Assembly: GCF_011006175.1 (NCBI RefSeq)
Contig: NZ_CP048795.1
Location: 1,232,491-1,296,490, forward strand
DNA from: Hydrogenobacter sp. T-8
GTDB lineage: Bacteria > Aquificota > Aquificia > Aquificales > Aquificaceae
Length of the DNA: 64,000 bases
Reading direction: 5' to 3'
In this document: positions 50,163-54,221 of the stretch, piece after piece
How positions within the stretch are numbered: the stretch's first letter is position 1
Layout of the letters: every line of letters begins with the position of its first letter
Notes under the pieces: generated by a model
Told to the model about the DNA's origin: nothing
Databases searched by the model: none
The model's input: only the letters and a program-made list of their open reading frames with translations
Position numbers and translations under genes: made by a program

Positions 50163-50179
50163 GGCGGGCAGAGCCCGCC
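50163..50179 (-). terminator. Rho-independent terminator after the bd-like operon
   Basis: GGCGGGC-TCT-GCCCGCC (minus strand) is a perfect 7-bp GC stem with a 3-base loop, followed by TTTTAATCT. It lies 9 bases after the stop of the 442-residue membrane gene and separates it from mscS. The reverse orientation also has a short A/T tract, so it could work both ways. Confidence 0.8.
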
Positions 50180-50187
50180 AAAAACTT

Positions 50188-51516
50188 TTAGATGTAGTTC
50201 CTTGCTATGATAATAAGCCCTGTGCCAACAAAGACTATAGCCCAAAGTATCACTATAAACACAGATACTTCACCAAGATGATGTTCTGTCTCGCTTGCCT
50301 GATATACTTCACCTTTTGGTGTTCTCCCTGCCTTATAAGCCATCCACCAAGCGTAGGCGTAGAGTATAAGACCTGTCAGAGTTGTTCCTAAGAAGAGCAT
50401 TGGGCTAAGCCATTCAAGGTTCACCTTGTATTCGTATATGGAGTATCCAAAACGTACGGTAGAGGCGACCCTGAGGTATTCTCTAAAGACCGCTATAAGA
50501 AGAGTTGCCACCGTGCCAGCAACGAGAGAAGGAATTGCCATACCAATGGGGTTCTTTTGGGCTATGAATATAACACCCGCACAGAGCAGTAGTCCAAGGA
50601 CAGAAAGCCATGCAAAGATGCTACCCTTCGCGTTCCAATCTGCTGGAACGGAGAATATGTAAAGCACATGGAAGACTATCCAGCCAGCACCACCCATGAG
50701 AGCAAGCTTTGCACCAAGTTTTGCAGAAAAGTTTACATAGTCCCTTTCAAACTCTGGTCTTTTTCCAAAATACCAAGCGTATAGCATCATAAAGACGCCA
50801 ATAACGGAAATAGCAGGAAACACAAGAAAGGCAAGGTATCTGAATATGTTAAAGGCGTATATACCCCAACCAGTGTGGTTCATGGTGGTTCCGCCAGAGG
50901 TATACCACTCTACCCACTTTTCTGGATAGAGAGCCTGGTAGTTAACCACATGGATTATAAAGCCCACTAAGAGCAAGAAGATAACACCACCTATAGAAAA
51001 AAGGGTGGCAATCTGTGGTTTCATCCTTGTAAAGTATGCACCCCATATAAGATAGTAGCCGATAAGCAGGGAAACTATGAACATAATATACCAGCTTGCA
51101 GATAGGTTAGCGGATGCATACCAAAGTGGGTCGTAGATGACTTGATAAAACAGCAGAGGTGCTACTCCCAACACTATAGCCAAAGATACAGAGACCTTTG
51201 AAAGCTCAAGCATAGCCTTTGCAAGCCTTTGGTGGTTTGGGTCTTTTCTTGTAAAGCCGTATATGGCATAGAAAAGTCCACCTATGGAAGTCCAAACAAA
51301 GACTATGTGGAGAGCCCAGGTGAGCACTTGCAGTATTTGCATAACCACTGGGAAGAAAGGTGCACCTGCAGGGTCAGCCATGGCTTTTAGCATAGCGGAT
51401 ACATCCGCGAGGGACTGCCCTGCGAAGGCAAGCCTGCCACCAAGTAGCATGAGAGCCAATACACCGAGCAATAACCACCTTGTTAGGTTTTGATAGGCCA
51501 CCATGCTCATGTCCAC
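50188..51516 (-). CDS. Polytopic membrane subunit of a cytochrome bd-like oxidoreductase
   Basis: A 442-residue protein with a hydrophobic, signal-like N-terminus (residues ~13-32) and about nine membrane helices. It has no heme c motif. A segment around His70 (VLTWALHIVFVWTSIGG) looks like the heme-binding first helix of the adjacent subunit, which suggests the two are distant relatives. It starts 6 bp downstream of that gene's stop, with a GGAGG ribosome site, so the pair form one operon ending in a terminator. I cannot name its family; cytochrome bd superfamily subunit II or a second subunit-I-like chain are the likely options. Confidence 0.65.
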   Translation of the reverse strand: MDMSMVAYQNLTRWLLLGVLALMLLGGRLAFAGQSLADVSAMLKAMADPAGAPFFPVVMQILQVLTWALHIVFVWTSIGGLFYAIYGFTRKDPNHQRLAKAMLELSKVSVSLAIVLGVAPLLFYQVIYDPLWYASANLSASWYIMFIVSLLIGYYLIWGAYFTRMKPQIATLFSIGGVIFLLLVGFIIHVVNYQALYPEKWVEWYTSGGTTMNHTGWGIYAFNIFRYLAFLVFPAISVIGVFMMLYAWYFGKRPEFERDYVNFSAKLGAKLALMGGAGWIVFHVLYIFSVPADWNAKGSIFAWLSVLGLLLCAGVIFIAQKNPIGMAIPSLVAGTVATLLIAVFREYLRVASTVRFGYSIYEYKVNLEWLSPMLFLGTTLTGLILYAYAWWMAYKAGRTPKGEVYQASETEHHLGEVSVFIVILWAIVFVGTGLIIIARNYI

Positions 51517-51522
51517 ACCTCC

Positions 51523-52935
51523 TTATTTATGAGCTTGAATGCTGGAAGTTGGCACTTCTATCTTGGCGGAGACTCTGCCACCCTTTGAGACCATGTCCGC
51601 TATGTAGGCTGAAAGGGCTCGGAGCTCTTCGTCCTTACCCACAAAGTAGGGCATGTATGCGGGATGGGCTTGAGGAGTAAGGTAGTTGGAGAGGAAACCA
51701 TAAACTGCATCCTCTGAAGTCATACCTTCAAACTTTTTGGCAAAGGGTCTGAGACCAGAAGCTCCTGTCACGTTGTGGCATCCAGAGCATTGGAGTATGG
51801 CTATCGCCTTTCCTGCCATTATCTTGTTTTCGGGTGTTATGGTCTTTAGACCCTCTGGCACGAAGGGGTTAACTTTGAGAAAGCCCTTTTCTTTAATGGT
51901 ATCCACCTCAGACTTTATACCTTTGGCTGGCACGTCTCTGGCGATAATCTGGTTGACCCACACAAATTCACCAGCCACATAGGGCTTGCGGATGGTTTCC
52001 CTTATTTTCTCCTCTGGATATACACCCATGAAGAATATGAGTGCATATATGGGGTATGCGATATAGGGTCTTGCAACAGTTGGCTTTATGGAAGTGAGCA
52101 CAAAGTGTGCAAGGAGGACAAGAAGTATGCCGAATATTAGAGCGTAATACCACTTTGGCACTATTCCAGCAAGCATTATGAGGCTTCTTTCTGGTAGTGT
52201 GGAAACATACCATCCGAAGAACATAGTCCCAAAGACAAGACCACCTATACCCCAGTAGGACATGGTCTTGACTATGCTCTTGTATACGTTCTCAGGCACG
52301 TCCTTTTTCATAAGGCTTGCAATAACTATGCCGATAGTGCCCGCTATAGCAAACATGAAGGAGCTTCTCATAAGAAGGTGTGGGAAGTAGTTCTTGTTAT
52401 AAAAAGCGTCAAGGATGTTTCCTGTGGTAAACCACTTCTCATGACCCGGTGAGAGCATAAAGGAAAGGATGCCTACGATTATATACATGGTTGCCCAAGA
52501 GCCTATGGCAAAAGTCCAAGCAAGCCTTAGCCAACTCTTTTGGTCTATCCTGCCAAGGGTGTAATAGAGTATATAGACCAGCGTCACCTCAGCCACGAAC
52601 CATATCCACTCTGCAGCCCAGACCCAAACGAAGTTGTGTATAAGGGCAGATATACCTCTGGGGTTTGCCACTGTGGCGGAGAACCATATGCCAGGACCGG
52701 TTATAGAACCAGAGACATAAGAAAATACCAAGAGTGCCAACAGATACCTTTTGATGTAGTCGTAGATCTGCGGGATGTTTTCTCTATAGGCTTTTGTGGC
52801 AAGGTATGCCAGCAAAATGGAGGCACCCACTGATGTGTGGGATGCCATGACGTGAATGGTGGCGATAATGGCGATGACCGTGGCACTGCCTATGGTAGGC
52901 ACATACCACATGGGTTGAAAGCCAAGCACATCCAT
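51523..52935 (-). CDS. Cytochrome bd subunit I-like protein fused to a C-terminal cytochrome c domain
   Basis: A 470-residue protein. Residues 1-310 carry about eight membrane helices with CydA-like features: His28/His33 in helix 1, a GSITGPG segment at 76-82, Glu109 and Glu116 in AEWIWFVAE, and His186 in FPHLLMR. The Q-loop of quinol oxidases is not seen. Residues 370-450 form a mono-heme cytochrome c domain: CSGCH at 383-387 and Met428 as probable axial ligand. This fits the oxidoreductase branches of the bd superfamily that exchange electrons with cytochrome c rather than quinol. Function (O2, sulfur or nitrogen compound) is unknown. Confidence 0.75.
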   Translation of the reverse strand: MDVLGFQPMWYVPTIGSATVIAIIATIHVMASHTSVGASILLAYLATKAYRENIPQIYDYIKRYLLALLVFSYVSGSITGPGIWFSATVANPRGISALIHNFVWVWAAEWIWFVAEVTLVYILYYTLGRIDQKSWLRLAWTFAIGSWATMYIIVGILSFMLSPGHEKWFTTGNILDAFYNKNYFPHLLMRSSFMFAIAGTIGIVIASLMKKDVPENVYKSIVKTMSYWGIGGLVFGTMFFGWYVSTLPERSLIMLAGIVPKWYYALIFGILLVLLAHFVLTSIKPTVARPYIAYPIYALIFFMGVYPEEKIRETIRKPYVAGEFVWVNQIIARDVPAKGIKSEVDTIKEKGFLKVNPFVPEGLKTITPENKIMAGKAIAILQCSGCHNVTGASGLRPFAKKFEGMTSEDAVYGFLSNYLTPQAHPAYMPYFVGKDEELRALSAYIADMVSKGGRVSAKIEVPTSSIQAHK

Positions 52936-52938
52936 GTT

Positions 52939-52953
52939 CGCACCTCCTGTGCG
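52939..52953 (-). promoter_or_regulatory. Hairpin displaying the Shine-Dalgarno of the bd-like operon in its loop
   Basis: On the minus strand CGCAC-AGGAG-GTGCG forms a 5-bp stem whose loop is the Shine-Dalgarno. ATG 52935 begins three bases later. Opening or protein binding of this hairpin would set translation of the operon. Confidence 0.5.
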
Positions 52954-52956
52954 GTT

Positions 52957-52971
52957 TTAACTTGAAGTTAA
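52957..52971. promoter_or_regulatory. Perfect palindrome at the predicted transcription start of the bd-like operon
   Basis: TTAACTT-G-AAGTTAA has 7-bp arms around one base. It covers the predicted start site (near 52970) just downstream of the -10 element, the classical place for a repressor operator. Confidence 0.55.
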
Positions 52972-52976
52972 CATTT

Positions 52977-53004
52977 AATATAACATGACTTTTATCATTG
53001 TCAA
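52977..53004 (-). promoter_or_regulatory. Sigma-70 promoter of the bd-like operon
   Basis: On the minus strand TTGACA (52999-53004) and TATATT (52977-52982) are separated by 16 bp. The -35 matches in all positions and the -10 in five. It drives the two-gene bd-like operon and overlaps the control region of the divergent flavoprotein gene. Confidence 0.8.
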
Positions 53005-53060
53005 GGGTCTGAGGCTTTTTTGATAAGTTGTGCTTATAATTTCATAAAGGAGGCTTATGA

Positions 53061-54221
53061 ATGAAGAAGGTTGTGATACTTGGTGGTGGTGTAGGTGGTG
53101 TGGAGTGTGCCATACATTTGAGAAAATACCACTTTGATGTAGAGCTGGTATCTGACAGGGACTTTTTGTATATCTACCCCACATCCATATGGCTACCCAC
53201 GGGCGAGGCAAAGTTGGAAAATGTTAGTATTCCACTGAAGGATATTGCTAAGGCTCATGGCTTTAAGTTTGCAAAGGGTAAGGTGGTAAAGGTGGACGCA
53301 GAAGGCTTTGTCTTTGAAGATGGCAGGCAGGTGAGGGACTTTGACTATCTTGTGGTAGCCCTTGGACAGAGCAAGCTAAAACAGGAAGGAATAGAACACA
53401 CCTACTCCATATGCTCCTCGCCAGAAGAAACTATGAAATACAAGGAGAAACTTTGGGAACTTCTGCGGAAAGGCTCAGGCAGGTTAGCCTTTGGTTTTGG
53501 AGGAAATCCCAAGGCAAAGGAAGCAGTAAGAGGTGGTCCAGTTTTTGAACTACTTTTTAACGTAGATACGCTCCTCAGAAGACGCGGCGTAAGGAATAAC
53601 TTTGACCTTGCATTTTTTGCACCTATGCCAAGACCGGGGGAAAGACTTGGGGAGAAGGCTTTAAAGCTAATGGATTATATGTTTAAGAAGAGAAACATAA
53701 AGGTTTACACGGGCAAAAGGATAGTCAGGTTTCTACCCTATGGGATTGAGTTGGAAGATGGAACTCTTATAGAATCTAACCTTACTCTTTTTGTGTCCGG
53801 CGGAGATGGACACCCTGCTATAAAGGAAGGAAACCTACCAAAGACTGAGGCAGGATTTGTAAGGATAGACGGACATTGCAAGGTGGAGGGGTTGGAAAAG
53901 GTTTATGCCATAGGTGACTGTGCCAACATAGAAGGACCCGAGTGGAAAGCGAAACAGGGACATCTCACCGAGGCTATGGCACGCATATGTGCAAGACATA
54001 TGGCATACAAGGAAGGGCTTACTACAAAAGAACCAGAAACATACCACGAGCATATAAATATTCTCTGCTTGATGGATACGGGAGATGGCGGAGCCTTGGC
54101 TTATAGGAGCAATAGTAGAGCTTTGCTGTTGCCCATGCCCTTGTTGGGACATTGGCTTAAGAAGGCTTGGGGAATTTATTACGGACTTTCAAAACTTGGC
54201 AAAATTCCACAGATTTTATAA
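53061..54221 (+). CDS. SQR-like FAD/NAD(P)-binding oxidoreductase
   Basis: A 386-residue flavoprotein of the sulfide:quinone oxidoreductase/type II NADH dehydrogenase group: N-terminal FAD motif VVILGGGVGGVE, YPTSIWLPTGEA in place of the SQR substrate loop, and YAIGDCANIEGPEWKAKQGH near 288-306. Of the SQR catalytic cysteines, I see Cys118 and Cys347 region candidates but not the central one (GFGGNP instead of a Cys motif), so true SQR activity is uncertain. AAAGGAGG precedes ATG 53061; TATAAT at 53035-53040 is a likely -10. Divergent from the bd-like operon. Confidence 0.75.
   Translation: MKKVVILGGGVGGVECAIHLRKYHFDVELVSDRDFLYIYPTSIWLPTGEAKLENVSIPLKDIAKAHGFKFAKGKVVKVDAEGFVFEDGRQVRDFDYLVVALGQSKLKQEGIEHTYSICSSPEETMKYKEKLWELLRKGSGRLAFGFGGNPKAKEAVRGGPVFELLFNVDTLLRRRGVRNNFDLAFFAPMPRPGERLGEKALKLMDYMFKKRNIKVYTGKRIVRFLPYGIELEDGTLIESNLTLFVSGGDGHPAIKEGNLPKTEAGFVRIDGHCKVEGLEKVYAIGDCANIEGPEWKAKQGHLTEAMARICARHMAYKEGLTTKEPETYHEHINILCLMDTGDGGALAYRSNSRALLLPMPLLGHWLKKAWGIYYGLSKLGKIPQIL

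Follow-up and report, generated by a model that had tools for sequence, protein, structure and literature searches.

A CydA-like protein with a fused cytochrome c domain and its CydA paralogue in Aquificaceae: a candidate cytochrome-c-dependent enzyme of the bd oxidase superfamily

The CydAB quinol oxidase, as represented by the enzymes of Geobacillus (5doq) and E. coli (bd-I, 6rko), shares the CydA fold with a 470-residue membrane protein of a hot-spring bacterium, here called A, which also contains equivalents of the CydA residues H19, E99, E107, E445 and R448. These residue numbers are those of the E. coli protein. Unlike CydA, A has no Q-loop, does not conserve the b558 histidine and is fused to a cytochrome c, and its partner B is a CydA paralogue instead of a CydB. 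The archaeal enzyme CydAA' oxidises quinol, unlike what is proposed here for A-B. The OR-C family, reportedly defined by Murali and colleagues in 2021, is said to lack the quinol site and to carry heme c on the CydA-like subunit.

All bd-type enzymes characterised by 2021 were quinol oxidases, and an enzyme with another donor was called for (PMC8509429). The bd superfamily is split by phylogenomics into three families, only one of which has the quinol site, according to three papers that cite Murali and colleagues (PMC8509429, PMC10839748, PMC13189123). A-B resembles archaeal CydAA' and the OR-N proteins of nitrite oxidisers (PMC10839748, PMC12342949, PMC3578206), where two CydA paralogues pair or a CydA-like protein lacks the quinol site; OR-N proteins have 14 helices and, in contrast to A, no fused heme c (PMC3578206). 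Three qOR features, the Q-loop, conserved b558 ligands and a CydB partner, are absent from A-B. Both the missing quinol site and the heme c on the CydA-like subunit agree with the OR-C definition given above, which PMC8509429 partially supports. By these features the pair fits a non-quinol, OR-C-like branch.

The locus and its CydA-like subunit

The window, a stretch of 64,000 nucleotides, is part of the complete 1.8-Mb genome of an Aquificaceae bacterium (G000), and its named relatives are labelled Hydrogenobacter, Thermocrinis or Aquificaceae. Three open reading frames (ORFs) were found with the coordinates and sizes given in the original prediction, together with two possible control sites:

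50163-50179, minus strand, terminator-like hairpin of 7 G-C pairs followed by a T run, just 3' of B (consensus match)
50188-51516, minus strand, gene B, paralogue of CydA with no heme c, 442 amino acids
51523-52935, minus strand, gene A, CydA-like membrane core with C-terminal cytochrome c, 470 amino acids
52977-53004, minus strand, promoter-like site ahead of A (TTGACA, 16 nt, TG-TATATT)
53061-54221, plus strand, SQR-like flavoprotein, 386 amino acids

A comes first and is separated from B by 6 bases. The promoter-like site matches the consensus at 11 of 12 positions, better than any other in the region, and is no more than suggestive of a real promoter; such sites are consensus matches and their total count is near chance level. 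With this site before A and the hairpin after B, A-B looks like a closed two-gene operon.

Single-sequence searches with A gave sub-threshold Pfam matches to PF01654 (4.6e-5) and Cytochrome_CBB3 (2.3e-5) and, against solved structures, weak cytochrome c matches only, so that a family profile and a fold comparison were needed to recognise its bd identity. The homologue of A at the Bacilli locus L013 exceeded the Pfam cut-off. The family profile of A (30 homologues) matched Geobacillus CydA (5doq_A, E 6.7e-13) at profile positions 10-210. An AlphaFold2 model of A was obtained with a pLDDT of 83, A and B both being modelled as single chains; its best 17 fold matches were all bd-oxidase subunits, followed by the ActC subunit of alternative complex III. 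A fold unrelated to CydA, which would have spoken against the original prediction, was found for neither A nor B, the models of which both match bd-oxidase subunits. Profile and predicted fold thus agree with the earlier view that A combines a CydA-like core with a heme c domain, and they identify A as a CydA homologue of the bd superfamily.

The residues of A were compared in a joint alignment of 33 A, 32 B and 8 canonical Aquificota CydA proteins and among the 30 homologues of the profile:

52852-52854, minus strand, H28, counterpart of E. coli H19, which ligates the high-spin heme; invariant in all A (33), B (32) and canonical CydA (8) sequences
52588-52611, minus strand, E109 to E116, equivalents of E. 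coli E99 and E107 in the joint alignment
51982-52002, minus strand, R312-E313-x-x-R316-K-P318, equivalent of E445-x-x-R448-Q-P (GRQPW motif)
51601-51822, minus strand, cytochrome c domain, residues 372-445 (PF13442, 2.3e-5)
51775-51789, minus strand, C383-S-G-C-H387, CxxCH invariant in 30 homologues
51652-51654, minus strand, Met428, invariant in 30 homologues

E109 is kept in all 33 A proteins and E116 in 32, and both in the eight canonical CydA proteins. R312, E313, R316 and P318 are likewise present in 33/33 A proteins, and the E, R and P of this motif in 8/8 canonical CydA. Among the 30 homologues H28, E109, E116, C383, C386, H387 and M428 are invariant and H33 occurs in 29. The five core residues originally singled out (H28, H33, E109, E116 and H186) are all present, but H186 did not hold up as a hallmark. 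It was aligned to the b558 ligand in the profile alignment, a register with which the joint alignment disagrees, and it is His in 12 of 30 homologues and Ser or Gln in most, so that the b558 site is not a feature of the family.

As originally noted, the Q-loop is absent: about 6 residues join helix 183-208 to helix 215-245 in the model. The CSGCH cytochrome c domain was also found at the C-terminus as described, and it resembles class I cytochromes c in that both its CxxCH and a Met-Pro are invariant.

The partner protein and the distribution of the pair

B is, as had been stated, a membrane protein of comparable size without heme c. The likeness noticed between the first helices of A and B extends to homology of the membrane cores, with a profile-profile probability of 99% and E 2.6e-18 over 223 columns. 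Against solved structures the B profile gave no match; PF01654 was matched directly by relatives of B, and the model of B matched bd-oxidase subunits, with the qOR-2 enzyme of M. smegmatis at the top. B has a signal-peptide-like start, H70, H189 and R345-E346-x-x-R349. The equivalent of H28 is retained as H70 (32/32) and both glutamates equivalent to E109 and E116 are lost, while the additional His (H189) and Glu (E346) occur in 16 B proteins of the joint alignment. Alignment and model identify B as a degenerate CydA paralogue.

A B gene was also detected by the family search in Hydrogenothermaceae, where it has a C-terminal CxxCH cytochrome c domain of its own, giving heme c on both subunits:

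L121, 9562-10926, B with C-terminal CxxCH
L122, 6935-8293, B with C-terminal CxxCH
L124, 9834-11213, B with C-terminal CxxCH

A was found in 28 of 136 Aquificota genomes. The 23 of these that belong to the family of the window all lack canonical CydA, which two other genera possess; this exclusion coincides with genus boundaries and does not amount to an independent test. In the window genome canonical CydA is absent and several heme-copper oxidase-family genes are present. Outside the Aquificota, a clear A was found in 18 of 399 sampled Bacilli genomes, and plasmid copies of the pair in Methylosinus, Thermus thermophilus and Agrobacterium, which carry no more specific annotation than 'cytochrome c' or 'hypothetical protein'.

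In the tree, which has long branches and an unsure deeper order, A and B each form one clade (each 100/99). The subclade of the window, comprising 16 A and 16 B rows from Aquificaceae, four Bacilli, Methylosinus and Thermus, has a support of 100/100 in both, and by this phylogeny A and B travelled together.

The flanks beyond A-B vary between genera in the Aquificota neighbourhoods. On the Methylosinus plasmid (L140, 8001-12943) genes for a small cytochrome c, a sensor kinase and a response regulator come after the pair, and methanobactin genes adjoin; the Agrobacterium copy also adjoins a sensor kinase and a response regulator. On Thermus plasmids (L141, 5267-6106 and 13007-13885) two ZnuA-like zinc-binding proteins and a DsrE-like gene flank the pair. 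Another Aquificaceae genus has a different bd-like protein of 577 amino acids (PF01654, 2.5e-19; L133 7647-9377 and L134 6901-8634), which may be OR-N-like. It adjoins genes for multiheme cytochromes c, among them one whose heme domain is of the ethylbenzene-dehydrogenase type.

Thiosulfate dehydrogenase genes upstream of the pair in Bacilli

A diheme cytochrome c gene lies directly upstream of A in each of the five Bacilli loci nearest to A, which come from four genomes, one of them carrying two copies; four of the loci show 44-54% identity to A in the identity tables. Each locus carries a cluster of TsdA, the heme-c-fused CydA-like protein and the CydA paralogue:

L013, 6875-10617, TsdA-A-B cluster
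L102, 6661-10459, TsdA-A-B cluster
L103, 7046-10962, TsdA-A-B cluster
L104, 6784-10675, TsdA-A-B cluster
L105, 1039-4366, TsdA-A-B cluster

Two of the five upstream genes were searched against solved structures and matched thiosulfate dehydrogenase at 1.7e-38 and 7.4e-46, the latter being 4wq7, and the SoxA/TsdA domain was found in 3/3 genes tested. With TsdA of Allochromatium (4v2k, 4wq7) they share both heme c sites (CxxCH) and the catalytic Cys, kept in all five, and they differ from it in an N-terminal anchor-like segment and in being joined to a bd-like pair. By these matches the upstream gene encodes a membrane-anchored TsdA-type thiosulfate dehydrogenase.

TsdA was not found in 15 other Bacilli neighbourhoods (one stretch just 6.7 kb), in the Aquificota neighbourhoods or plasmid loci searched, or at E 1e-3 in the window's own genome, where the sole SoxA-TsdA domain match is one 287-aa ORF, far away. 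The Bacilli rows cluster in the tree, in which the fifth locus was left out for A. As these loci form one clade, the TsdA association represents one persisting event and not five independent ones. A wider look at the order of these Bacilli, only 6 genomes in all, added no independent TsdA loci. In a literature search no description of a TsdA-bd operon was found, which does not prove it unreported. The synteny suggests a sulfur link of the pair in Bacilli, where A-B is probably fed by TsdA.

Proposed function and alternative readings

The functional proposal starts from what was observed for A-B: homology, residue conservation, pairing, Q-loop loss and TsdA synteny. We consider it likely that A-B is a membrane heterodimer of CydA-superfamily paralogues which acts as a cytochrome-c-dependent terminal O2 reductase, and we infer its heme content, donor, acceptor, proton path and coupling as follows. 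Electrons would come not from quinol but through the periplasmic heme c domain of A (His387/Met428), and would pass to a high-spin heme pair in A with H28, E109 and E313 as ligands, where O2 would be reduced with protons delivered past E109/E116. B would replace CydB as the structural partner, and the B proteins of the window's clade may hold one more heme via H70, H189 or E346. In Aquificaceae the electrons would be supplied by a soluble cytochrome c that bc1 or Sox reduces, and in Bacilli by the membrane-anchored TsdA, oxidising thiosulfate to tetrathionate.

That cytochrome c replaces quinol as donor, an idea of the original prediction, is probably correct in view of the missing Q-loop and the fused heme c domain. 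Further points consistent with an O2 reductase are the bd membership of A with its invariant CxxCH and Met, the catalytic residues kept in A with both glutamates lost in B, the paralogy and shared phylogeny of the two proteins, the TsdA that precedes the pair at each of the five nearest Bacilli loci and is missing from every other neighbourhood examined, and the small cytochrome c 3' of the pair in Methylosinus. Against it stand the lack of a TsdA in the window genome, the single event behind the Bacilli association, the heme-copper oxidase-family genes of the host and the low-spin heme ligand, which is not conserved and leaves the route from heme c to the active site unclear. Elsewhere TsdA can also run as a tetrathionate reductase (PMC6879331). 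Tentatively, and with somewhat less than an even chance of being right, TsdA-A-B in Bacilli may be a self-contained thiosulfate:O2 module in which TsdA passes electrons directly to the heme-c-fused bd-type oxidase, the Aquificaceae pair being the same enzyme with a soluble cytochrome c donor.

An unlikely alternative is that the pair uses cytochrome c electrons to reduce NO (or peroxide) and not O2, as a detoxifying enzyme. The bd-type heme pair binds both molecules, the host already has heme-copper oxidase-family genes, and in Methylosinus and Agrobacterium the pair has a sensor kinase and a response regulator as neighbours, an arrangement frequent among inducible stress systems. However, A retains every glutamate that canonical CydA is taken to use in supplying protons for O2 reduction, and among the flanking genes inspected none could be recognised as acting on NO or nitrite.

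Marginally more doubtful still is a coupling of cytochrome c and the quinone pool, complex-III-like or by reverse electron flow, without O2 reduction, as suggested for bd-like proteins of nitrite oxidisers (PMC3578206). Heme c of A might just as well take up electrons, and the fold match to ActC points the same way, but A has no Q-loop and its O2-site residues are invariant though such an enzyme would not need them.

That the divergent flavoprotein works with A-B as a single unit for sulfide oxidation is highly improbable: the flavoprotein and the pair lie start-to-start across a 125-base gap in the window and the flavoprotein has an SQR-like fold with two of the three SQR cysteine equivalents, but in the close relatives G036 and G046 A adjoins malQ with no SQR-like gene between. 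Its orthologues lie far from A-B in G038 and G057 and occur without A-B in genera g2 and g5, scattered across the Aquificaceae independently of the pair. The SQR-like ORF lacking the central cysteine is thus real, as described, and its position beside A-B, not being conserved, is no evidence of the sulfur chain it had seemed to hint at; it was rejected as a partner.

As a cytochrome-c-dependent O2 reductase, the pair would belong to a kind already known from sequence, since it fits the OR-C description given above; this OR-C-like kind is biochemically uncharacterised and A-B is a further member. The heme c fusion and the TsdA operon name a concrete donor, thiosulfate via TsdA, and concrete proteins, and so make the question of a non-quinol donor testable. 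If the proposal is true, TsdA-A-B would be the first oxidase of the bd superfamily for which a donor other than quinol can be named, and A-B provides Aquificaceae genomes without canonical CydAB with a candidate terminal oxidase that had been overlooked.
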